A stretch of 21,543 bases of DNA from Saccoglossus kowalevskii (Eukaryota > Hemichordata > Enteropneusta > Harrimaniidae), in contig NW_003130854.1 in the NCBI RefSeq assembly GCF_000003605.2, forward strand, positions 816,501 to 838,043, read 5' to 3'. Below the pieces are notes generated by a model. That model was not told the DNA's origin and did no database searches. It was given only the letters and a program-made list of their open reading frames with translations. The position numbers and the translations under genes are program-made. Of the stretch, positions 1,308 through 19,080 are shown piece after piece; the first letter of the stretch is position 1; the number at the start of each line of letters is the position of its first letter.

Positions 1308-4300
1308 CTGCTGTCGCAAACGCTGTTTTGAGGCACCTATACATACCTCGCCATTTGAGATTGTCTTGAACTTAAATTAGCATGGGACTTATTCATCCAT
1401 GTTTCTACATGTCTTAACTATAAAACTGGTCTCCAAACCTGGTTTTGTGTATGTGTGTGAACACAGTATATCCTACTCGTATGTTACCTGTTTCAATTAT
1501 TATGATAAATGTAACTGAATCAACTACTGTAAAATAATTAATTTTCACTGAAAGAATGATTTAGTGAAAATAAAACCCAGCGAATATACCCTTTTCCTTA
1601 TTGTTTACATTCAACTTGTGAAAATAACGTCCACACAAAACACCAAAAATATTTCCGCGAAATTTAATTCCAGCTGAAATAAGGTATTGTTGGTTGTGGT
1701 ATGACGAATTACATTTTACGGGGCCTTTGCTTTAATTTCTAGAATAAAATCACTTATAAATCCCTTTTACGGAAAAAAAAGCATTATTTAGTGCACGATA
1801 ATTGACTGCTATTTGTCCTATTATCCCAGAACAAAAATGTGCTCCTGATAGGCAAATATGTTTTAATTCCTGCATTTCAATTTCTAGCTTTTACAGTACC
1901 CAGCACTTCGACACGTACATCTGCATGTGATAAAAAAATGCAGTGACTAAAGCAGCTTTGAACCATTGCAACAAGATGAAATAGACTTCAATTACCGAAT
2001 TCCACTAGCTTTAATTGCGTCCACAGTCGACGAGATTAACACAAAGACTCAAGCTGAACAAGCTGTAAATGCATCTTGGGCGTTATGGAATATATGCTAG
2101 TAAATGTATACCCGTGTATGGACGAGTCTAACATGTTAATAGTGAATTAAAAACAATACACAACTGGATTTTGTAAAAATAACACCCATTGTTTGCAGTT
2201 ACCATTTTCTGACAATACAAAATCTTTGATTTGAAAAACAAAGTTCTGGCAAAATCGCCCTCTCTTGGTCAAAGCAGAGATCACATCACACTGTTGAGTC
2301 GTGTAATCAGTGTTTATTGTGACTGGGAAAAATAAAATTCAACTGTTGTCATTTTTTCATCACTTGTTTTAGCCTGTGAAAACTACTTATCACCTTTCAC
2401 AAATCTTTATGTATATTTAAGTATTTAAATAACATGTTTTTCAATTCTTTATGTTATTATCAACTCTAGGAAGAATTACTTGGCTTATCAAAAAGACAGA
2501 TTCAAAAATAATACATTTTTAAGTCAAAACAAAATATCTGTTTATTTCCCTTTCAATAATGTCAGCTCGACAATTTGTAATAGCTTTGCTGTCAACTTTG
2601 TTAATAATATCATTATAATTGTCCATCAGTGTTTATTTATTGCTTTTATATTGAACATGTAGTTGCGTTTGATTTATTCTTTTTCTCTTTCCATGGGCCG
2701 AGCAACCCATGCAGAACCTAGCCGATTTATGCACATTATTGGTGTCGGACTGACACAGTTTCAAACGAAAAATGTTGAAAAAATATGACTGAACGTGTGG
2801 ATTCTCATCAATACGTTATATATTTATCCCAGTTATATTATATCAACTGTATTTCTAATGTATTTTCGAGACCCAGACACTTTAACCAATATTTTAATAT
2901 TTAAAAAAATACTTAAACGAAATGGGATTAACTTATAGAATTAATACATGTTATTCACGTTTTGGGCCTACATCCTACGTTGTCTGGCTTGCCTATTCAA
3001 CGCTTTCGCGTTATACTAGTATTATATAACACGCTATTATAATATACATGTATAAATTAATTATAACTTGTGTGTGTCCCGGCAGTGAACGGAATATCGT
3101 GTTGTAATACCCCCCTCCCAATTATATAACATGTTTAAAATAAAGAATATTTGTATATTATTTTTATGCTGTCTATATACTTTATACGTTTGTACACCAC
3201 TGTGCAGAACAGGACGTGAACACGTTAAACCGGTGATAACAGTTCTAATTTCTCAATGTGTATAGATTTGTGAGACTGTTTAGATTTTAGATTTATCTAC
3301 GTTGTTGAATTCAACATATTTTTTTATACGTGACCGAGAAATGTCACGATTCACTGCTCAATTGAACAGATGCGCAAATATATAAAGTGCAACGCCGCAT
3401 TTGAAGAAGTTACAGAAAAAAACATGATATTGGGTGTATTGACGCTGCAGAAGAGTTCAACCCGTTCGAGAGAAATTTGTAGTCAGCTAAGAGTGGGGTC
3501 CATTCTTAGTGACAATTCAGGGTCGCCAAAACTGCTTTTCATTCTTCATCGGAGCATTACCTCGTACCAAAGGCCTCCCGAAGAATGACAAAGTAGTTTG
3601 CAGAGCAATTCTATTTGTATTCAGACACCAAAAACACCACAACTCAACATAAAAACGAGTTCATCAATGTTGTCTTTGTCATGTTCAATTAATGAGCGAA
3701 AAATCAAAACACTGACAATGTGTGAAGATAATATTACCTTAATGGATCACTACATGGCGACAATTTTATTCGCCAGGTGAGCAACAATTAATGAGCGCAA
3801 CTTGCACAATGACTGCATACGTTTAATAGTTTCAGAAATTAACATGACAAGAATGCTTCAATTTTGTTTTGTCTATATTCATACAAGAAGTGTAAATATG
3901 TCGTTGCTTGGTAATACTGATGATAGTTGTCACCTCCAGTTGACCATATATTTATTTCACGTGTCTACTTTTCATGTATATATAAAGTAACCTTGATAAT
4001 TACGATCGGACGCAGTGTTGGTACCAGATCACTTACAACATTAAAACTACTTGCAACACTGTATTGTTTATTGTAGGTCAAGTGAACACAGTGTATTTGA
4101 TTTGGTTGCGGTGATTGGCCCGAAATATACGTCACTATATCGAGTGAGTATGTTATAGCAATTGTGGTGTTAAAACAACTGTGTGTATGTGTGTTGTGTA
4201 ATATAATACAGCCGTACATTCTTTTTCACAATATAGAAGCACGGTGTTAAAAATTATCATCGCACATCGAGCCATAGGGCGAAAAACAAAATTCTAACGA

Positions 4301-4440
4301 ACGGGAGCTTATCCTAAAAAATAAAAAAAGACTTAAAAATGATTACATCCTTCAAATAAACCTGTAATGATATTCAAGTTGCACTATTTTGTAAAACGGA
4401 GATAATTTTTCTAATCATAATATTAGATCGTTTTTTTTAT
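1308..4440. other. Long AT-rich stretch without recognisable genes
   Basis: The few open frames here (for example 3370-3588 on the plus strand and 3965-4219 on the minus strand) have no familiar motif and lack domain-like composition. A loose inverted repeat lies around 3008-3034 (GCGTTATA...TATAACACGC). I see no tRNA, no convincing splice-bounded exon and no transposon protein. It is best read as intergenic or intronic DNA. Confidence 0.45.
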
Positions 4441-4805
4441 GTTTATAAGCTCTTTGCGTCTCTGGAGGGAGAACAAAGAGACAATGGAACGTCAGGAGAT
4501 GGTAAACTACATACAGTATTACGATTACAACGAAGGACGAGGAGCCATTAAATTCCGGTAATCATTGTGAGGTTGGACAAGAAATTATTAAATCAGGTTT
4601 ATTTGGGGTAGGTAGATGGTATCACACAAAGAATCGTCATGCCGGGTTTGCCCAAGCATGGTTTAAAGCTCGCCACCATTTTAATAGTCTCGTTGGACAA
4701 CAATACTGTGTGGAGGTTTGTAGCAAACGAGTTGAAGTGACCGACTCGAAAACATTGTGTAAAGTATTTGGCGCGAAAATAGAGGACACGTTCAAGAACG
4801 AGTAA
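4441..4805 (+). pseudogene. Degraded N-terminal block of the PHD-methyltransferase gene, unknown domain
   Basis: An open plus-strand frame runs from 4506 to a TAA at 4803. It reads like real protein, with motifs such as GVGRWYHTKNRH, FAQAWFKARHHFNSLVGQQY and VEVTDSKTLCKVFGAKI. Just upstream another frame carries ERQEMVNYIQYYDYNEGRG, so the coding sequence seems to change frame near 4540-4560. I do not recognise the domain. It lies about 120 bases before a PHD-type zinc finger on the same strand, which suggests that both belong to one gene. A short stretch between them in another frame (QLTEIGPQEN, near 4864) may be a further fragment. The minus-strand frames over the same bases look like shadows. 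The coding nature is inferred from composition and frame length alone. Confidence 0.45.
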
Positions 4806-4900
4806 GCAATATTTTTGAAACAAAGCAACTAGAAGATTGCGAAGATAAATCCATAGCCTTCACCAATTAACTGAAATTGGTCCGCAAGAGAATTTGATGT

Positions 4901-5022
4901 ACAGACACTAAAAAGATAAAAGCGTATCGATGTGTGTGCGATAAACCAGATGAGGGTAAACTGTATATTGAATGCAAATCTTGTTTCAAATGGTACTATT
5001 TTGAATGTATGAAACTGGATAA
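4901..5022 (+). pseudogene. PHD-type zinc finger, first half
   Basis: The plus frame reads YRCVCDKPDEGKLYIECK and then SCFKWYYFECMKLD. Cysteines lie at codons 4931, 4937, 4973, 4982 and 5006, with the spacing of the first half of a C4HC3 PHD finger (C-x-C, 11 residues, C-x2-C, 4 residues, H, x2, C). PHD fingers bind histone H3 tails in the nucleus. The expected zinc-binding histidine, before FEC at 4997, is tyrosine here (TAT instead of CAT), which should weaken zinc binding. The last two ligands are not found in frame, because the reading changes into a different block soon after 5020. It is probably the chromatin-reader part of the gene that carries the methyltransferase exons downstream. 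The finger is well supported; membership of that gene is inferred. Confidence 0.6.
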
Positions 5023-5415
5023 AAACTATTCCACTCGTATTCAACACCGGATCTCCCACCCCCACCTCACTCCCCTGTTCTGGACCTTGGCTATCCTAAA
5101 CACCATATATCCTCGCCCAAACCGTCGGCCTCTCTCCTTATATTCGACCCGAGCGACGAAGACCTCCATAATATTTTCCATACAGTCACCCAATCTGATT
5201 TCTCCCCGCCAAACACGCAAATTACCGATCTTAAGGCCAGACTCGATGCGACCATCTTACAGACCCACCTCAAACGTTTTTGTATCGCCAAAATTCAATC
5301 AGACTCCCTCGAATCCGCCATCCAAATGGACTGTTGTAGCATTACTGGTTTAAAGGTTGAACTAAACACTTTGAATAAGAAAAAAAAAATTGTGAAAATT
5401 GGGTACCATCTTTGA
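5023..5415 (+). CDS. C-rich open block of 130 codons, unknown protein fragment
   Basis: A plus-strand frame stays open from 5023 to a TGA at 5413, but has no clear ATG at its start. It begins proline-rich (DLPPPPHSPV) and continues with LLIFDPSDEDLHNIF, SDFSPPNTQITDLKARLD and LESAIQMDCCSITG, ending in a lysine-rich tail. Its base use differs from the surroundings: it is rich in CCC/CTC codons, while the neighbours are strongly AT-rich. The competing frame (4934-5353) carries the PHD half but becomes low-quality after 5040. The block may be a linker of the PHD-methyltransferase gene read after a frame change, or a foreign insertion. I do not recognise a family. Confidence 0.4.
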   Translation, partial: KLFHSYSTPDLPPPPHSPVLDLGYPKHHISSPKPSASLLIFDPSDEDLHNIFHTVTQSDFSPPNTQITDLKARLDATILQTHLKRFCIAKIQSDSLESAIQMDCCSITGLKVELNTLNKKKKIVKIGYHL

Positions 5416-5877
5416 TTACTTATAAAAAAAATAATAGTTTTTGACTGATGCCATAGTTACCCAATGTAATTGGAATTTGCCATGTTGCAACTCTACACAA
5501 CTTGGAAACAGTAGAAAATTAGTCAGATAAGTGGCATGATTTGATCACGGCTACAGTTTTGGGCATTTGTTTCTCTTGAGTGCCTTTTCCTACCAACTAT
5601 TTTGTTGTTGTTACATGTATGGCAAAAGCTTCTTAAAGAAAAAACAAATGCTCTTTTCTCTAATTGCACAACAAAAAGTAAATGAGTGTAAAGAAGAACT
5701 TTTTCTGATATTTCATGTTGACCTTTTTCAGAATTGTTCATTTGTGATGATATCTTCAATTCTCTAATTTTAATGATTATTTTTGACTTTTTGGTAAAAA
5801 GTGATATTTTAGACTTCTTGTTAAAAACCGCAAGTCCGATTGCTATACATACTATACATATTGTTCATGCTATGCAG
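5416..5877 (+). other. Probable intron before the first methyltransferase exon
   Basis: This AT-rich stretch has no domain-like coding signal. It ends in a pyrimidine-rich and AT-rich tract followed by TATGCAG at 5871-5877, a good 3' splice site just before coding-like sequence. No donor site was pinned down. Confidence 0.4.
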
Positions 5878-6024
5878 GACTGTGATGCTGGTGATGTGAT
5901 AAGCCCGGATGATTCAAAAGTTGTTACCATACAACATGATGCACTTCATCTCACAAATGCAGATTTCACCGAGAAATGTCAGGATTTTAAAGGCTTTCAT
6001 TTAGCTGTACTTATTATACCATTG
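5878..6024 (+). pseudogene. DNA methyltransferase exon A (motif IV region, degraded)
   Basis: This 49-codon exon begins after CAG at 5875-5877 and reads DCDAGDVISPDDSKVV, then TIQHDALHLTNADF and QDFKGFHLAVLIIPL. In permuted beta-class N4C/N6A DNA methyltransferases, the catalytic motif IV (D/S/N-P-P-Y/F/W) follows a hydrophobic strand in the N-terminal half. GFHLAVLIIPL sits where FDLVILDPPY would be expected, so the strand is there but the catalytic residues are not. The exon ends in phase 0 at TTG|ATAAGT (6022-6030), which looks like a normal GTAAGT donor with its first G changed to A. Exon B starts in the same phase at 6603. The frame runs on open to 6201, but the part after 6025 is not methyltransferase-like. 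Confidence 0.55.
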
Positions 6025-6602
6025 ATAAGTAGTGAATTGTCAAGTGAATTCATTGGTAGAATATTGATGCTGGATTTTGTAGGCAGTCTTGTACTAGTAT
6101 TTGTCAGTATCCGAGTTATTCCTATATGCATTTCTGTTAAACCCCAACTATTTTTACATTCTTCATCAATTCATGCATTTACAAAAGCAATTTATTATTG
6201 AAAATATTTTAAATTGTATGCTTATAATACAAGCTTTTCAAGTATAACATGGTTCAGAAATAATTCATTTTAAGCAAATTAAGAAGAAAAAATGTAATAA
6301 TAAATATGTATTGTTTTTCCATGCATTTCGTATTACAGCGCCATAATTTTTTTAAACTTTCATACACAATTATTTGCATGTGTGGGTAAGTTAACTTCAC
6401 CACATTAAAAAGTGGGTTAAATAGACATACATTTATATTATCGTACATGTATCTACAAGTATATTGTTATATTGCCTAGGCATGAGTCTATTATAGTGAT
6501 GTGCAAATAATCGTTAATTGTATGTACTTTAAATAGAAAGCTGCAAGATTCTTTATTTACTTATATACACCTTACAATATGTTATCATTGCTCGATTCAT
6601 AG

Positions 6603-6789
6603 GATTGGACTGCAGATGATTTAAAAAAGCTGTGTATCACATGCCATAGATATGGAACATGATGTACCATTTTATAATTTTATTACATTGTGTCCCATTG
6701 AAAAAATGTACATGGTTGTGAGAACGATGCAGGAATGTGGAAATGCTTTGAAGATAGAGGATATTACTATATTGACAATGATAATCCAG
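6603..6789 (+). pseudogene. DNA methyltransferase exon B (post-motif IV region)
   Basis: The exon is bounded by AG at 6601-6602 and GTGGGT at 6790. It is 187 bases long, so it enters in phase 0 and leaves in phase 1, as the next exon requires. Frame 0 gives DWTADDLKKL at the start and KCFEDRGYYYIDNDNPG (completed by exon C) at the end. The middle reads in the +1 frame: MEHDVPFYNFITLCPIEKM and VVRTMQECG. The two frame changes cancel in length, and both lie in A-rich runs, near 6623-6629 (AAAAAA) and near 6740-6744. The layout fits the region after motif IV of permuted methyltransferases (W-T-x-D-D-L helix, then the NP-G-N-N-V loop). The cause is either small indels in a dying gene or assembly errors in homopolymers. 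Confidence 0.65.
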
Positions 6790-7292
6790 GTGGGTGATTA
6801 AATTAATATTAACATGTAGTAAACATTTTATATTGTCATTGATTTGATGGTGAGAGAATTACTTACATACTTGATTGTGACTGAATGAGCCGGCGAGGTA
6901 GAACAGTTTACCTTCAAGCTTTCTCAGGTGTTTTGTATTGTGTCTGTATCTACATTCTGTAATCAGTGACACACTAGAATGGTGAAATATTACATGAGGC
7001 AATTTATGCATTTTTTTAAATAGTTGAGTAGTTGAATTTTGTCCCGGCAGTTTTATTCATGTGCCATTTTAAATTGTAGCATGCTGAATTCCAAGTTCGG
7101 GTTGTTGGCTGAACATGTTAGAAGATAATCAATGCAACAGTTTGTCTGGACGCAAGCAAATGAACTAGCAGGTTACTCCATTACATAAAATGTAAACACA
7201 TACCACATGTTTGTATAAGAACAAGTACAGTAAAACTGAGAAATGAAGAAAAAGCTTAGATTTAATGTGCTAATTGATGTCATCTATTATAG

Positions 7293-7553
7293 GTAATAAT
7301 GTAACACTATGCAACTCGGTTAGTGGTGGTGTTATTGCTTATTGGAGTCAAGCAGAAATCTCAGATGTCCAAATTAATACGACTTGTGCCAATGAGCATC
7401 ATCATTTTTGGTCATGCACCTCATTTCCAAAATTTAGAGGAGATGATGGAGAAGTAGCTTGTGATCAGCAGAAACCACTAGGCCTAATGAAACAATTAAT
7501 TAGACTGTTTTCATTTGAAGGTTTAATGGTCCTTGACCTTTGTAGTGGAACAG
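7293..7553 (+). pseudogene. DNA methyltransferase exon C (intact; carries motif I start)
   Basis: A clean 261-base exon between AG (7291-7292) and GTAAGC (7554). It enters in phase 1, leaves in phase 1 and has no stop. It reads GNNVTLCNSVSGGVIAYWSQ, then a histidine-rich piece, then FPKFRGDDGEVACDQQKPLG, LMKQLIRLFSFEG and MVLDLCSGTG. QKPLGLMKQLI is the helix that precedes the cofactor site in beta-class methyltransferases. VLDLCSGTG is the S-adenosylmethionine-binding motif I (usually DxFxGSG), with cysteine in the usual phenylalanine place. AYWS is the strand between the halves. The open frame visible from 7274 includes intron bases before 7293, so its ATG is not a start codon. The exon itself shows no damage; it is called a pseudogene only because neighbouring exons are broken. 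Confidence 0.8.
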
Positions 7554-8063
7554 GTAAGCATCTTATTAAATAATACGTTTTGAATGAAATTTGCCTAGGC
7601 ATTCTTGAGAAACCACAGAGGCAACAGGCATGATACATCTGTTTATCAACGTTTATTTATCTGTTTTGCAAGTACATGTACATTTATATAGGATATCATC
7701 ATTTAATAACAGAGTAAATGTATTTGTCATGCATATTAAGTGTGTTTTTTTCCTGCATGACCTTTGATAGTTTTCTCGATTGATTGTGTTTAATGAAGCT
7801 TCAAACAATATGTCAGCAAACATCAGCAATCATTTTTCAGACATGACTAGGCCTTTCTGTACATTTATAAGATGACATTTGAAGTACCATGCTGACTACT
7901 CCCTAACATCTACCTACATTCATTCATTCTTTATAGTTGACATTCACATGATGGCTTTTGTTTTGCTGATGTAGTAAGCAAATAATAATATAAAACTAGT
8001 GTTGCACATTTAAGAAACACTGGGAGTTAATAATTGACCATTTGTTTTATTTTTACGTTGCAG

Positions 8064-8270
8064 GATCTACAGCGATTGCAGCATTACAATGTGGTAGGAA
8101 ATGCAGCAACTGTTGAAAAAGACAAAATGTTTACATATTTAGTATCAAGACTTGTGTCAGTGTTTAAATTAGATGAAGATGAGGAAGATTTAATTAGATT
8201 TAGTCCGACTGGAGTACATTCAAACTTTGATCATGTATCACATTTATTATTCTTGAATTTTCATTTGTAA
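8064..8270 (+). pseudogene. DNA methyltransferase exon D (motif I end, motif II)
   Basis: The exon starts after TTGCAG at 8058-8063. Its first two bases complete the glycine split by the intron, so the protein runs ...DLCSGTG|STAIAALQCGR, a textbook motif I with the following alanine-rich helix. One base too many in an A-run (8099-8101) moves the reading into another frame. That frame continues NAATVEKDKMFTYLVSRLV and SVFKLDEDEEDLIRF, where VEKD is the acidic motif II that holds the ribose of the cofactor. The frame is open to TAA at 8268, but the true exon end may be earlier, perhaps at a GT near 8236. N4-cytosine and N6-adenine enzymes cannot be told apart here. Confidence 0.75.
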
Positions 8271-9186
8271 AATATTTTTTTTAAGATGATTTTAATTAAA
8301 ATTTTCACTCGTATTGATTTCGTGTTTATTGTGAATTTGCGGGGCTATGTAATTTCATGAATATTAATAATTGTATGCAATTGGACATGACATACAATTT
8401 TATGGTCAATGATATGGCATTATTTTTTATCAATAATTCAAATAATCTACTTTAACGGTTCCAAAATCATTTATGCCCTATACCAAAGGGTTTTCGATCG
8501 AAAAGCATTTCATTCTCATGGCCCTAAGCATTTTTCATTTTAAATGGAGAATCGTCAAAACGTGATTTTTAAGCATTGTAAAATACAATTAGAAAAATGT
8601 AGTGCAAACATAGAATAAGAGCTGAAGTGCTATATAATAAAGAAAAAAACAAGAAATCTTTACTTGCCTACAATTAGACAACAGTTGCCAAATTTTGTTG
8701 AGACAAAAATGAAAGGTTTAATTACAGGAAAATAGTAGAAAATGAGAAAAAAAAGTGTATACAAATGTGGGCAGAAAGTCTGGTTCTAGTGTAAAGCGAC
8801 CATGGTGGATAGTTTATTGGAGGTGTGAATGTACATTGTTAGAAGTGATAATCACTTCAATTGCATCTGTTGGGTGGGTCATGTTTGTGACCTTTTTCAA
8901 AAATATATAAATTTTTGCAATCTGTGATATTCATCATTGCGACATATAATTGTTTTAAAGCAAATAAATCATTGTTTCACCGCAGCTTTTTCCTGGGGCA
9001 GTTTACTCCACATCTTACAAGCAAATGATCCCTAGATATAGACGTTTAAACTTTGTAGTAGTTAAATTTTGTAGTGCTAAGAATTCATGCATTTGTATCA
9101 TTGATAAGTTTGATGGGTTGATTTTTGGGCCTTGTCATGCTATGCTGTCCTATACATCATATTCATTTATTTGTTCACACTATTAG
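8271..9186 (+). other. Probable intron of the methyltransferase gene
   Basis: AT-rich sequence with many A-runs and no coding signal. It ends in a pyrimidine-rich tract and CACTATTAG at 9178-9186, a plausible 3' splice site before the next coding-like stretch. Confidence 0.35.
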
Positions 9187-9445
9187 GTTTTACGGCGACT
9201 GCAACATGGAAGTTATACAGAAGATAGTGGAAGCTGCCACAAGTCAATTAAAAGGAAATCATGAAGACTTTGTTTTAGGTAAAGAATTAAGATTTGCAGA
9301 TTTTATACTTCTTGGTATTGATCTATTATCATACATTGACAAATATTTTAATAGGAATCATGCCACTTATCTTGTACTTATCCATAGATGCTTCTCGGAC
9401 ATACTTATTTACAAAGAGAAAATCTGGGAAGACTTTGAAGTTTAA
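9187..9445 (+). pseudogene. Possible exon E, helical then basic tail of the methyltransferase gene
   Basis: Following a good acceptor at 9178-9186, the plus frame reads CNMEVIQKIVEAATSQLKG, then NHEDFVLGKELRFADFILLG and IDLLSYIDKYFNRN, ending in a TAA at 9443. From about 9410 two other frames look more protein-like and lysine/arginine-rich (KSGKTLKFKKKQARRQRKQQ, and KKASQKAEKAADNN). A short basic, nuclear-localisation-like region may therefore follow after a frame change. I recognise no domain. Its place between the methyltransferase exons and the acidic tail, on the same strand, is the only reason to assign it to this gene. Confidence 0.35.
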
Positions 9446-9495
9446 AAAAAAGCAAGCCAGAAGGCAGAGAAAGCAGCAGATAATAATATTTTATA

Positions 9496-10260
9496 TTGTT
9501 AAATGCTAATTTGCAGTTCTTCAAGAATTTAAAAAATCTTGCTTCGAAACATTACCATATCAGCATGGAACACTTTCTTCGGCATGGGACTAGCTTGTTG
9601 ACAGTAGCGCATACAATACAGCCATGTTGTGAAACACGCAGATATGCAAGCATCAGTGTAGTAGAAGCAGGTTTTGTATTTAGATTCCTTTAAAAATTGG
9701 CACAATGATAATCTGACAAAATACAGGTGCTTTCTAATTTGGAGTGTAATTTTATGACCTTAAATTTTCATTGTAGGTGCCTGTTATTGTTGATACTCTC
9801 CAAATTTGTTCCTACATTTAGAACTGCAAAGATATTTCGGCCGTGAGATGGAACTGTTTAGGAGATATAAGAAAAACAAGTTATGAAATCTGGTGCATAA
9901 GTGCTTGCGGATAATATTGCTCTTTGTTATTCAATATTTTATGAATACTTTCTATATCTATTTCACACCTTCTACCTTCAGCACACAGTTCTTTCTAAAC
10001 TTCCTTTGATTCTAAGTTGGACGTTCTCCACAAGATATTAGGTCACAGTTTTGCCTATGCATGATGTGTAGCACTATTGTGGGAAAACAATTTGTTTGTC
10101 CATCTTAGTTGAATTTTCCTTGAACTCATAGCGATATTCTAGTATACAAAGACATTTTCCAGTTACCTTTGGGCAACATGGTAATGCAACTGTGATGACA
10201 TTGTTACAATACATAATGCGGTATGGACAAACTCAACTGATAAATGATCTTTTTTTACAG
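9496..10260 (+). other. Unassigned stretch between possible exons
   Basis: Mostly non-coding in appearance. A plus frame at 9496-9693 (LRHGTSLLTVAHTIQPCC) and a short piece near 9825-9890 could be coding relics, but have no recognisable family. The stretch ends in ATCTTTTTTTACAG (10247-10260), a strong 3' splice site for the next block. Confidence 0.3.
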
Positions 10261-10472
10261 AAGCTGAGCAGGAAGAAGGCTGCATTGCAGGGCAGCCCAT
10301 CAATTTCTGCAAGTGATCAGCAGTTTTTGAAAATGATTTTGAAGACTGAGATTCATCGCCGGATGCAGCAGAATCTAGTGATGATGACGACATTGCAATT
10401 CTCCAGACAAGAAAGTCGAAGTGTCTGTGTGTCAGGCCTCTTCCATGTAGATCAGAGAATTTAAACAAGTAG
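10261..10472 (+). pseudogene. Acidic C-terminal exon F, probable end of the methyltransferase gene
   Basis: Starting right after a strong acceptor, the frame from 10263 reads AEQEEGCIAGQPINFCK, SAVFENDFED and DSSPDAAESSDDDDIAIL, then QTRKSKCLCVRPLPC, and ends at TAG 10470. Two in-frame TGA codons interrupt it (near 10314 and at 10347). Serine/aspartate-rich tails of this kind are common in nuclear chromatin proteins. The longer uninterrupted frame over the same bases (10192-10464) starts inside the intron and is arginine/glutamine-rich, so it is less likely. The assignment to this gene rests on position and strand. Confidence 0.4.
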
Positions 10473-10689
10473 TTTCAAATTCTTGACCACAAACGTGAAA
10501 ACAGTTGAGAATGGAGGTGAAATCGGTTCACACCTAAAAGAGCCCCCATTGCACCCCTCCATAGTTCTTTCATTGGACGATTATTTTGTAGATTTGTTTT
10601 CATTAATTAAATATAATTTCTAACCAGTGAATTATGTGACATGTATCACAATTTAACCCCGGGTATATACGACTTGAATAGTGCATATT

Positions 10690-12071
10690 CACCCAGTACC
10701 TTTTGCACGAGTGAATTATTTGACAGGAATACATGGGTTCAATTTTGAACTTGCTTTTGGAGATAGATAGTCCGATGTTCTTTTATATGTATTTGCCTTG
10801 GGTAAACCTGTCAGATTTGTTTCATTGTGTAAATTTAATTCTCCAATATTAGCCGAAATCCGTTCACTTGGGCTAATTGACAAGATTGTCACAGGACCAT
10901 ACTGAAAAGCTGAAAACATCCTTGACATGAACTCTCACCTCCTCCAAATGAAAATAACGTTGGAGAGATGATGCCAAGATGCATCTCCTGTTCTGGAAGG
11001 TAAAATCTTGTTCTCAGAAGAGCTTGCCCCTATACGCAGATAAACTGCACAGTAAACTGATGAAAGAAACTAATAACCCAGAATTTGATGCATTCAATAT
11101 TACTAATTCTAGAGCGCGAGCGGCAATGCGAAAATTAGCTGCCAGGTGGGAAATACTGGAATTTAGATGCCATTACAAAGCAAGCTGTTGCAGGAGTTTC
11201 GACAACCGATATTGCTGGAGAGCGTGATTTTGCAATCTTGGATTTGCTCGTTAGAAATAAACCAGCGGCAACAACCCTGTGTTCTGTGGCCAAATAATAA
11301 AACCAGGCAGTGGCTGGACAGCAAGTCTTCTGAAGATAAAAAGAAACTGATGGCAAAGTTGCACGAAGATAAATACAATGACCGAATGAAATCTCTTAAG
11401 GAAAGAAAGTTGGTGATACCAAGAGCGGAAAAGGAAAGCAAGGACAATAAAGAATACACAAAAAAGGGAGCTTTTTAAATAAGATAAACCCAGTGTGGAC
11501 CACAGTTGAAGAAAGTCTACTCAAGTACTGCTTCAATTGAACTCTTACAAAACAGTACTTAAATCAAGAGGGTTGAAAGGATTGTTCCAGCAGTCGCACA
11601 AACATACGCAGTATACACTACAACAACTAGTAGAAATGTAAAGTCTGTTATTGCTGCAAACCCTGTATTACAAGCTGATTAATGTAATAATGCCCCTTTG
11701 ATACCAGTAGTACGTCCTAGTGATGAAAGAGATGCAATTCAAATTACAAAAACAAAAATTGCACAGCAACCTTCATGACCTGCGAAGGAAGCGACGAATT
11801 GAGAAACAGCAGGAGCTTCATCCTTTATTTGAAAGTGATTCCATCTTACTTGTGAATAAACTTGTTCTCCATAAGTGTGTTGAGGAAGGAACCACAGAAG
11901 CAGTAGGGTTTGGTGGCCATGCTTTGGCACTAGTGAAGAGAAATCAAAATAACACTTCGGAGTGAATTCACTATAAAATATGATGAGGAAGACGATGAAA
12001 CTTCTTGGCAATTTCCATGATTATTGGACTTCAAAAAAGGGGATCTTGTAATTGTGAATACATGTATATAA
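10690..12071 (+). pseudogene. Remnant of an uncharacterised invertebrate gene family with Tudor-like C-terminus
   Basis: Plus-strand pieces follow one another without introns over about 1.4 kb, in changing frames. They are EIRSLGLIDKIVTGPY (near 10855-10910), ENILDMNSHLLQMKITLER (to 10968), QDASPVLEGKILFSEELAP (near 10975), GKYWNLDAITKQAV and ERDFAILDLLVRNKP (11142-11294), NNKTRQWLDSKSSEDKKKLM (near 11290), a lysine-rich helix to 11478, and VWTTVEESLLKYCFN (near 11505). The C-terminus is LVNKLVLHKCVEEG, FTIKYDEEDDETSWQFP and LLDFKKGDLVIV, ending near 12050. From memory this order (LGLIDK-x-TGP, DAS, ERDFAxLDRLLREKP, NNKTxxWL, WTxEE, then a Tudor-like barrel) occurs in many uncharacterised proteins of molluscs, cnidarians and other invertebrates. 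The final piece fits a Tudor fold (xYDxxxE...F.LLxDxxxGDL). In-frame stops (for example TGA in GPY|KAE) show it is broken. Its N-terminal part is missing or unrecognised. A role in chromatin or DNA mobility is inference. Confidence 0.6.
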
Positions 12072-14140
12072 ATAGATAATAATACACATTTAATAACCCC
12101 TATCTATGCCTATGAATGAATGATGTTCAAGATGCAAATTATCTTGTCTTTAGACAAGAAAAATTACGAGTAACGTTGTTTGCATATTAGAATTATTAAA
12201 AAAAAATCTGGTTAGTATTTTCCTAATAAGTAAAATGCATTTTGGGAACGATTTGCATCGCGTAAAGTGCATTTACCCCACATATAGTAGTATAATACGT
12301 GCAGGGTGCATATTTATTTTACCGATCCCAACATGTAGATATTTTCAAAAATATTAAATATGCTACGAGAACTTTACTTGAAGCAGAAGCAGTACAGAAT
12401 AATTAGAGATTAAACGCATTTAAACTAGGGTAAAGTTACCTTGCCCTTAGCATCAGATGGCAAAGGTTTATTACAGGAGAAATGTCATCGCTCCCGCTGT
12501 AGTTGCCACTGCACTTAGTATCAGTGACTTTGGTGACTTTTAATATTGATACAAAATTACTGTCTTACACTTCTTATCACACAACAGTGTTAGGTTGCTT
12601 CTAATGCACAGTTACAATTTGTCTGAAGTAAGGCATAAGAATGTTTATACTCAATAATTTAAATAACCGAATGATGCACGTTAGTGGATGCATTATATGT
12701 AAAAATGTTTTTGAAATATAAATAATAATGCTTTTTTTGTTTCTTAATAGGGTAATTGTGAATCAAATCTTAACGATGACCACCTGCATGACATAAAGAA
12801 AATGTATTCAGACACTAAGAGCTTGGGTTACCGATTAAATTGTTAAAGGGGAGCAGAAGTCTGGCTTTTGACACTCTGTACATGGAATTTGAGATCTATG
12901 AATGAATTTTGTCGATAAAAACAACTTGTATGTGCTGCGAAATGACCTAAACATCGGGTATAAAACGGCCTGTGAAGCAGACAACAAACGTCCGCTTTGC
13001 CTGGCGTCATTTCGCCTCTAGAGGGCCAGTCAAATTATGTCATCAGTGAACACTGATAATTGAACCCATTCATTCTAGTACGTCAATCTTATAGAAATGC
13101 TACTATGAAAACCCTTGTTAACTGACAATTTAAAAGTTGAAACATTGTGAGGTGTTGTGCGTATGAATATCATAACGATTTATGTTAAGTTTCTCGAAAT
13201 CCCAAATAAAAAAAATCACGTTGTTGGTTGCGAGAAATCGGCGGAAGAACTAACCAAAAAGTGAAGACACGTACAGCGTTCTAGCTATAGTGAACAGTGA
13301 GTGAATAAACATTGTACAAGTTGAAACTAAATTAGAAATACGCTAACGTCACTTGAACTACAGTACTCATTTCGCCCAACTTCTCACTTTTTAATCGACC
13401 GCTTATCGTTTAATTTTCGACCGCACTGTTTTTTCAGACCGGAAAACGACCGCATTTTTATCGTTATCGTTTCTCTCTCATTGAAAACACCGACCGGTCA
13501 CTCAAACACTGGTCCCTGACACAGGAGTAGTAGTTTAAGTGATTAAATTCCGAACTACTCTTCAAATCTATACGACTTTGTAACGTTCTGTGTTCAATAT
13601 TAAATAACTGAGTTTGCGTAATTATTATGAAAGCGATATATTACAATGTTGAAATTTTTAGAGCCGGTACAATATTATAAACACATTTGCGTAATTAGAA
13701 AAGCAGCGCACTAAGTAAACGATCTTAAAATATACAAGTTTGCGTACAGCATCGTCAGAACTAATAACAATTGTACAAGATCGACGCGCGGAGCAAGAAA
13801 GAAAAAGGTTGCTAAGGTAACGCGCCTGTTCAGTGCGTGACTTGGGGGTCAAACATACGGTCAACACACACTAGATGTCAGCATGGCCGCACAGCAAGTT
13901 ACGCAATGAAGTACTTGAAGTTCAGTTGCGCCCCAAATTGTCGTTGATCACTCAGTCTTCTATCAACTATTCATATACACTAGTTTCCAAGCTTTTGGTG
14001 CAGCCAAATTTATATATATATATATATATATTTGAACTTTGTGGCAATATAATCCTTTTAATTTCCCAGTCCTTTCTGCTCATTCATGGTCTTGACAATA
14101 AGTGTGAATTGATGTGCAAGCCTAACCATACACGACAGCG
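12072..14140. other. Stretch without recognisable genes
   Basis: I find no domain-like frame on either strand. A GTATAAAACGG element lies at 12958-12968 and recurs twice further on. Around 13395-13455 the word CGACCGC recurs several times in a degenerate manner. A (TA)n microsatellite lies at about 14010-14032. The minus-strand frame 13658-13867 and the plus frame 13875-14159 lack any familiar motif. Confidence 0.4.
14010..14032. repeat. (TA)n microsatellite
   Basis: An uninterrupted TA dinucleotide run of about 22 bases. A shorter TA run lies at about 14349-14361. Confidence 0.85.
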
Positions 14141-14225: not shown

Positions 14226-15290
14226 GGTGAGAATGGTTATTAATATTTTTTTTTTTTTCATTTCAAGGTAAAAAATTGATAGTTAGAATTGACTGTTTCA
14301 CCGGGACACCTCCAGTTCTTTTATAGTTTGGCGATGAAAAATAACAAATATATATATATAATGCATAGCTATAGTATTTGTTTAATTATTTGGGTTTTCA
14401 CCCGTCAAATTACTGAACATGATTCCCATTAATTACGGTCAATGTTTGTTCTGTCTCGGCTTGAATGACAGACGTCGACACCGACGCACGAGAAACAAAC
14501 GACGATCGATATTCTAAACAAATTATTACCGGGAAATTGTCGATAGGCATTCCAAACAATCGAAATTATTATCCTAAGACCGTGACTACAAACATAATTA
14601 AACAAACACATCGTGAGGAATCAACAATTCGAAAAGGAAACCCAGAAATTACGCCGATGTACTTTGTAAATCGGACAAGCATACCGCAATTGTGTTCTAA
14701 ATACAAGCGGATGATATGTAATCGTCGGGTTGTAATACGTTCTGTGTCATTCGTTCCAATTACAGGCGAATAATATGCAATTGTCGGGTTACGATTACAA
14801 GCCCCAATATATATTTCAGTTTTTGACCCAATATATATTTCAGTTTTTGATGTAATTAACACATTTCAAGCTGGTAAGTAATGTGAACATAGACACAAAA
14901 TAATGCGAATTATATTCCAAAGAAACCTATACACCAAATGTGAGAGCAATCTCAACAATGGTTGTCAAGAGAGTCTACATGAGTAGAAAATACAAATTTT
15001 ACTAAAATTAACTAAACAAATCGACAACAAAGGAAGATGATAAAACAAATAAATCAGAATGAGATCACCCAGTCTCCCAAGATTAAAATATTAAGAGGAA
15101 TCCGTGGAATAACAGTTACCAAAAAATATATTGATATATCGTCTCACCAAGTTTAGAATGTACATTCAACATGTCTTAATGGTAATACTGAAATCTTGAA
15201 AAATTCTGCATGTAGTAAGCTAAGCCCCTTTATTTTATCAGCGATATTATCCAAGTACAGCAAGCCACATTTTGTTTTTCAATTATTATT
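14226..15290. other. Stretch without recognisable genes
   Basis: The longest plus frame here (14465-14773) has no known motif and is overlapped by a minus frame of the same quality. Both look like chance. Related half-repeats (TGTAATCGTCGGGTT and TGCAATTGTCGGGTT) occur near 14717 and 14775. They are followed by the tandem duplication listed separately. Confidence 0.35.
14803..14850. repeat. Tandem duplication, 24-base unit, two copies
   Basis: The unit beginning CCCAATATATATTTCAG and ending TTTTTGA occurs at 14803-14826 and again, identically, at 14827-14850. This is a recent slip or duplication event with no evident function. Confidence 0.85.
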
Positions 15291-18029: not shown

Positions 18030-18236
18030 AAAAATGTTGCGGGCAGTCACTCTTTTTGGTTGGATATACCGTCACAAACTTAACTTGTCACAACGAATAT
18101 TTACCACAATCCGTTTATGACCACAAAATATATACCCACTGTGAAAATTAATTCTTAGGATATAATACAAAAATTATCATATTTATTTAAAAATACGAAA
18201 CAATAATGAAAATATTGAGTGTACTGTCCAAATTAT
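18030..18236. repeat. Direct repeat, copy 1 (unknown family)
   Basis: The stretch from AAAATGTTGCGGGCAG to TACTGTCCAAAT is found again at 18659-18884 in the same orientation. A 33-base run (18116-18148) is identical to 18736-18768. The rest has small indels and substitutions. It has no coding signal; it may be an unknown dispersed element or a segmental duplication. Confidence 0.8.
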
Positions 18237-18658: not shown

Positions 18659-18884
18659 AAAATGTTGCAGGCAGTTCTTGGTTGGATATACCGTCACAAA
18701 TGTAACATTTTAACGGATATTTACCACAATCAGTGTATGACCACAAAATATATACCCACTGTGAAAATCAAAATAATATCATAAAGTCGACAGCTGTTTG
18801 GATTTTTGAAAAAAATTACAAAAATTATCACATTTATTTAAAAATACAAAAAAAATTATAAAAGTTTGAGTATACTGTCCAAAT
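18659..18884. repeat. Direct repeat, copy 2 (unknown family)
   Basis: The second copy of the unit at 18030. It is slightly longer, because of extra bases around 18772-18815 (including TAAAGTCGACAGCTG) that copy 1 lacks. It also carries a few short deletions near its start. Confidence 0.8.
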
Positions 18885-19080
18885 TTTATTATTTGGCATT
18901 TCAATATAGAGCTGAGGAAAAGATTTTTAAACTTTTTTTAAGAACAGACTAGTCAGGGTAACTAATGAATGGCTAATGGTGGATCACTTAACCGATGATA
19001 TGTCGGCCTTTTAAGAATTCATTCTACACAGATATATAAATACTTTGTAATGCGACACTAAGTTTTGCCTATTTTTACAG

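Follow-up and report, generated by a model that had tools for sequence, protein, structure and literature searches.

Does a locus of the hemichordate Saccoglossus kowalevskii encode a captured bacterial-type enzyme that methylates animal DNA? A first-pass annotation had proposed so, describing four exons that rebuild an N4C or N6A methyltransferase. In this work, the window, i.e., the whole stretch of DNA that was analysed (21,543 nucleotides, C2261:816501-838043), was compared with the genome that contains it (572,110,611 bases, 4830 contigs), with viral, plasmid and GTDB sequences, and with Pfam and PDB entries. We consider it probable that the window holds a pseudogene of a multi-copy, intron-rich family bearing a captured methyltransferase domain, and that the living members of this family are non-catalytic scaffolds.

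The core of the window copy and its decay

The features read in the window, together with the eight further loci of the family, are listed in Table 1. The core formed by exon C, the intron and exon D is real. Unspliced, exon C matched the PF01555 profile (N6_N4_Mtase) with E=5.4e-4 and 20.4 bits, below the gathering cut-off of 26.7 bits, whereas the strict-frame splice of exons C and D rose above it with E=3.2e-9 and 37.5 bits. Using an independent profile of 14 phage or plasmid enzymes (loci L001-L013), the acceptor ending at 8063 gave the top spliced score (51.3 bits) among the 240 AG acceptors located between 7560 and 11500; the second-best acceptor, at 9186 (42.5 bits), was judged a chance match. 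Furthermore, when the 727 six-frame stop-to-stop segments with a length of 20 amino acids or more were scanned, exon C ranked first (E=1.7e-9) and exon D second (E=0.16, not significant by itself), both being adjacent in the profile. The protein read from exons B to D, with an X placed at the frame change, matched the solved structures 2zie (1.6e-5), RsrI (1.6e-4), CcrM (3.1e-4) and MboIIA (0.0098), and the D, G, G and T of its motif I (DLCSGTG) were invariant in an alignment with seven phage enzymes. Exon C displayed 56%, 34% and 31% identity to that of three paralogues.

Table 1. Coordinates of the family features in the window, and location of the further family loci in the genome
Feature	Location	Strand	Description
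Exon A remnant	5908-6024	+	3' end of the family's long e6 exon, up to motif IV (..FHLAVLIIPL)
Exon B remnant (e7, motif V region)	6603-6789	+	three pieces that alternate between two frames; entered at phase 0, left at phase 1
Exon C (e8)	7293-7553	+	carries motif X (QKPLGLMKQLI), then motif I as far as DLCSGT; in frame from 7295
GT-AG phase-1 intron	7554-8063	+	interrupts motif I; position matches the five paralogues read
Exon D (e9)	8064-8200	+	second half of motif I (GSTAIAALQCGR); 3' end approximate
P2	C1801		frame change in exon C; entered the tree with its two frames joined
P3	C1340		open over nine exons
P4	C3194		e3-e9 open; relative to P3, e2 is shifted in frame at an A-run
P5	C1554		frame change in exon C
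P6	C1496		frame change in exon C
P7	C167		stops and frame changes
P8	C167, second place		partial
P9	C419		partial

The annotation was thus right that a GT-AG, phase-1 intron splits motif I, and also that the locus is not bacterial contamination: the C-D intron interrupts the identical codon in six copies, namely those of the window, C1801, C1340, C3194, C1554 and C1496. Contamination, or a chance similarity, could be argued from exon C, which by itself stays under the Pfam cut-off; its probability is nevertheless practically nil, as the spliced score exceeds that cut-off, the acceptor is the top one of 240, and the introns are shared with paralogues on other contigs, by which this explanation is refuted.

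The remainder of the proposed four-exon layout fared worse. The intron phases 0, 1 and 1 are indeed those of the paralogues, whereas the window has lost the A-B donor, with ATAAGT standing immediately past motif IV, at the site of the GT donor of the paralogues. Exon B contains two frame changes, starting with DWTADDLKKLCITCHRYGT, continuing in the other frame with FITLCPIEKMYMVVRTMQE, and returning to the first frame with GMWKCFEDRGYYYIDNDNPG. With exon pieces picked by eye beforehand, the score of the joined exon B against the paralogue e7 was reached by 0 of 2000 shuffles (P4, P5) or by 5 of 2000 (P3); the single pieces scored weaker, one of them being equalled by 1976 of 2000 shuffles against P3. 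For exon A against the paralogue e6, the corresponding counts were 1 of 2000 with P5, and 49, 405 and 84 of 2000 with P3, P4 and P6, respectively. The joined exon B is supported as a remnant of the family, and exon A is so only weakly. The acceptor of exon A at 5877 is missing from the paralogues, in which the exon runs on uninterrupted at this point, and the motif IV region that had been placed in this exon reads IIPL (FHLAVLIIPL), the catalytic tetrapeptide being absent. Nor do STAIAALQCGR and VEKD belong to one reading, as had been claimed: the exon D frame carrying the former runs to ..KCSNC and a stop, and VEKD, with the motif II acid, follows a frame change. Finally, e3-e5, the start of e6, and e1-e2 were undetected in the window at E≤0.5.

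The window copy is best read as a decayed pseudogene of which the last four exons alone are legible, and most likely yields no functional protein. The degree of this decay could be overstated by assembly errors, since frame changes in exons C or D are present in P2, P5, P6 and the window, and another one occurs at the A-run in e2 of P4. Taken to its extreme, this argument would turn the window gene into an active animal DNA N4C/N6A methyltransferase broken only by sequencing or assembly errors, and motifs X and I are well preserved in the window and C1801 (QKPLGLM, SGTG), the exon C donor is clean, and one of the breaks lies at a short A-run. We hold this to be very unlikely, as the IIPL of motif IV, the missing donor of exon A, the two frame changes of exon B and the undetected upstream exons are independent defects, too numerous for read errors.

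The gene family and its origin

Searches of the genome returned four loci with exon C as query (window included), six with e6 of P3, four with e4 of P3, and one with PF01555, all these counts being lower bounds; the family comprises at least nine loci, i.e., the window and eight others. An open frame across the whole of e3-e9 is confined to P3 and P4. These seven common exons display open frames, GT-AG introns and equal phases in both copies, with lengths of 176, 213, 87, 621, 193, 267 and 143 (P3) or 146 (P4) bases, six of which are identical; in the nine-exon model of P3, a start was not found. Purifying selection between the two open paralogues has been strong: 378 of 565 residues are identical, pS is 0.697 and pN 0.189 (dN/dS ~0.11, at a dS of ~2 that is near saturation), and pN is lower than pS in seven of seven exons.

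Both paralogues matched PF01555, with 52.7 bits for the full model and 55.9 for its C-terminal part in P3, and 41.5 and 41.4 bits, respectively, in P4, and their motif I reads DACCGTG. A three-paralogue profile recovered the solved amino-methyltransferases DpnA (5hek, 1.2e-7), MboIIA (2.1e-7) and CcrM (7.5e-5) in an alignment that begins in the motif V region and ends at the motif II acid, and the phage and paralogue profiles were aligned by hhalign with a probability of 98% and E=1.8e-13 over 71 columns, from motif X to II; this match, as well as the Pfam matches of P3 and P4, stops short of motif IV. The permuted order, in which motif IV precedes X and I, is given by the exon order e6-e7-e8-e9 in P3, P4 and P5. 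By score, motif order and motif I, the domain is classed as a relative of PF01555, so the permuted bacterial-type amino-methyltransferase domain announced for this intron-containing gene was borne out.

Several decayed copies of one domain might also be expected if the methyltransferase were cargo of a transposable element, e.g., a DIRS-type retrotransposon, and an MT domain is present in DIRS1-like elements (PMC3266345, accessible part). We give this explanation only a very slim chance: the loci found in 572 Mb are few (at least nine) and have spliceosomal introns in common, and no reverse transcriptase or recombinase was found at Pfam E≤1 in the three plus-strand frames of window positions 4000-13982.

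In a tree of 78 columns, from which P6, P7, P8 and P9 were excluded as broken or partial and in which P5 was entered with X, the window copy and P2, P3, P4 and P5 formed one clade against 107 viral or plasmid ORFs (SH-like support 0.90), and the window copy grouped with P2 (0.979). Scans of viral contigs using the window exon C, the upstream exon, the joined B-C-D protein or the paralogue profile A3 confirmed no relative; paralogue profile A4 recovered one locus, matching the methyltransferase end only, and a profile with two phage enzymes recovered at least 309 relatives, of which 80 were kept. Among GTDB contigs, neither A3 nor A4 led to a confirmed relative; the method relies on short patterns and may miss distant ones. 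In a phage search with e3-e9 of P3, the best 30 of 761 records matched the methyltransferase end only, and plasmids gave nothing at E≤0.1 with the e6 exon. The C-terminal domain of the family is best read as a descendant of a permuted beta-class amino-methyltransferase of bacteria or phages, and we infer a single capture together with upstream additions, namely an N-terminal region of no recognised family and an e6 region of ~200 residues.

The e3-e4 part of this N-terminal region is highly kept among the C1340, C3194 and C1554 paralogues (80% and 57% identity), and matched none of the Pfam families at E≤1, nor any PDB chain convincingly. A ParB reading of e3-e4, proposed by eye, was unsupported: there was no ParB_N match in Pfam at E≤1 and no ParB in PDB at E≤10, and hhalign against one viral-contig ParB_N protein gave a probability of 0.1, less than the 2.2 reached by the top-scoring one among 150 other viral ORFs, a weak test made with a three-row profile.

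Motif IV and the probable loss of catalysis

The long exon ends with FDLVILDTPQ in P3 and VDLVILDTPQ in P4; motif IV reads VIVDVPD in P5 and CILNMPE in P6, and the DVPD of P7 is out of frame with the residues preceding it. An aromatic fourth residue is found in none of the six readable copies (DTPQ, DTPQ, DVPD, DVPD, NMPE and, in the window, IIPL), and P3, P4, P5, P6 and P7 retain a D or N in first and a P in third position. For comparison, Y or F occupies the fourth position in 104 of 107 viral or plasmid methyltransferase ORFs (103 D-x-P-Y/F, one SPPY, and three other, namely DPSQ, HMVN and a gap), a set that serves as a yardstick and not as a sample, since it was mostly picked through patterns and includes near relatives. 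A motif IV-V profile of 106 ORFs aligned its consensus vdliiaDpPY to FDLVILDTPQ (P3), VDLVILDTPQ (P4) and FDCVIVDVP (P5), scoring 11.7, 12.8 and 3.4 bits, each unmatched in 250 shuffles, and covering e6-e7 in P3 and P4 and the motif IV end alone in P5. This profile does not align the motif IV of P6, for which 92 of 202 row-giving shuffles scored equally high; NMPE was therefore placed through the alignment of P6 to P3, P4 and P5.

METTL14 is an MT-A70 protein and a degenerate subunit of the m6A writer. Like the family described here, it has the fold of a methyltransferase and a motif IV devoid of the aromatic residue (EPPL), and the accessible part of its description reports that this absence accompanies inactivity (PMC5023411); Pfam gave no MT-A70 match for P3 or P4 at E≤1. 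From this precedent and from the paralogues lacking the aromatic, the active sites of the family are inferred to be degenerate. The loss of the aromatic is by itself not proof of inactivity. As motif IV shows no D/N/S-x-P-Y/F/W in the readable copies, the family was not classed as an active amino-methyltransferase.

With the window copy broken and no readable motif IV carrying an aromatic, a captured working enzyme making N4C or N6A, as first proposed, does not follow from the data. The suggested search for intact paralogues did succeed, yielding two open ones (C1340 and C3194), whereas their motif IV reads DTPQ. These living paralogues could still be catalytic, acting on another substrate or through a rearranged active site (D-x-P-Q/D/E), given that the D or N and the P of motif IV are kept in P3-P7, that P3 and P4 preserve the motif I signature and are under purifying selection, and that DPSQ occurs at motif IV in one of the 107 comparison ORFs. 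The near-universal aromatic of those ORFs (104 of 107) and the inactivity of METTL14 without it (PMC5023411, accessible part) make this rather unlikely in our view.

A different arrangement, with a catalytic subfamily, is conceivable, since the motif IV exon was not found in P2, to which the window copy is most closely related. Two branches would then derive from a single capture, one of degenerate METTL14-like scaffolds (C1340, C3194, C1554 and C1496) and one with canonical motifs X and I (the window and C1801) whose intact members elsewhere catalyse. We regard this as distinctly unlikely; if true, animals would have two independent amino-methyltransferase systems, this one and the bdelloid N4CMT.

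Under the reading that we favour, that of a pseudogene within a family of scaffolds, an animal gene family would have taken in a permuted beta-class amino-methyltransferase, keeping the fold and probably losing catalysis, as in METTL14. Its living members would retain the SAM-binding signature (D-x-C-C-G-T-G and the downstream acid) and, instead of methylating DNA, may serve as non-catalytic scaffolds that bind SAM or nucleic acids. A Lys-rich stretch is present in e2, which would fit a candidate nuclear protein.

The prokaryotic and phage beta-class enzymes DpnA, MboIIA, CcrM and RsrI share with the family the order IV-V-X-I, a motif I of the form D-x-x-x-G-T/S-G, a Q-K region and an acid closing the next strand; unlike them, the family has no motif IV aromatic, and possesses spliceosomal introns and long N-terminal regions. 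The bdelloid rotifer N4CMT (PF01555) is, like the family, an intron-bearing animal gene with a permuted beta-class core of bacterial origin, and differs by its C-terminal chromodomain and its activity shown in E. coli, according to the accessible part of PMC8885841, and by its catalytic SPPY motif, according to that of PMC11065753. The family, in turn, is set apart by its motif IV without an aromatic, by ~500 residues before motif IV (P3) and by its at least nine loci, and neither P3 nor P4 has a chromodomain match in Pfam at E≤1. According to the accessible text of PMC8885841, eukaryotes contain no homologues of the bdelloid N6_N4 methyltransferase, and a family such as the present one is described in none of the open-access journal papers listed, as judged from titles and beginnings of abstracts. 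A multi-copy, intron-rich and selected family with a PF01555 domain would add a further case to the DNA-modification enzymes known to have been captured, and would exemplify a captured enzyme that sheds catalysis while its fold persists. Its exons constitute precise queries for other animals.

Neighbouring features

Upstream of the family exons, a PHD-finger-like stretch was observed at window positions 4931-5029 (PF00628, E=1.4e-4, 22.2 bits, under the cut-off of 24). As a part of the methyltransferase gene it was rejected, since no PHD finger was found near P2-P8 at E≤1 and the P3 model has no PHD match. Just upstream of it, a coding-looking stretch (~4600-4803, ..GRWYHTKNRHAGFAQAWFKARHHFNSLVGQQYCVEV..) is read in the plus-strand frames and has no Pfam match; both stretches probably belong to a separate gene or pseudogene.

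Downstream, at a distance of 1 kb, a stretch resembling the C-terminal domain of GST lies on the plus strand at 9209-9313 (PF14497, E=0.0039, under the cut-off). Two overlapping plus-frame ORFs of coding-like composition occupy 10958-11480 (..NITNSRARAAMRKLAARW.. and ..NNKTRQWLDSKSSEDKKKLMAKL..), and their Pfam matches were weak only and probably due to chance. The window also contains an exact two-copy tandem of a 24-base unit (14803-14850), and a diverged direct repeat (18053-18234 and 18675-18885) of three blocks, 79-93% identical and ~620-651 bases apart. Outside the window, minisatellite-like repeats are located ~1.7-2.5 kb past exon C in C1340 (L100, minus strand) and C3194 (L102-L103), and are readable as repeated peptides (STIVDFLGPSQY.. 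and FSTIVDYVQAE..).
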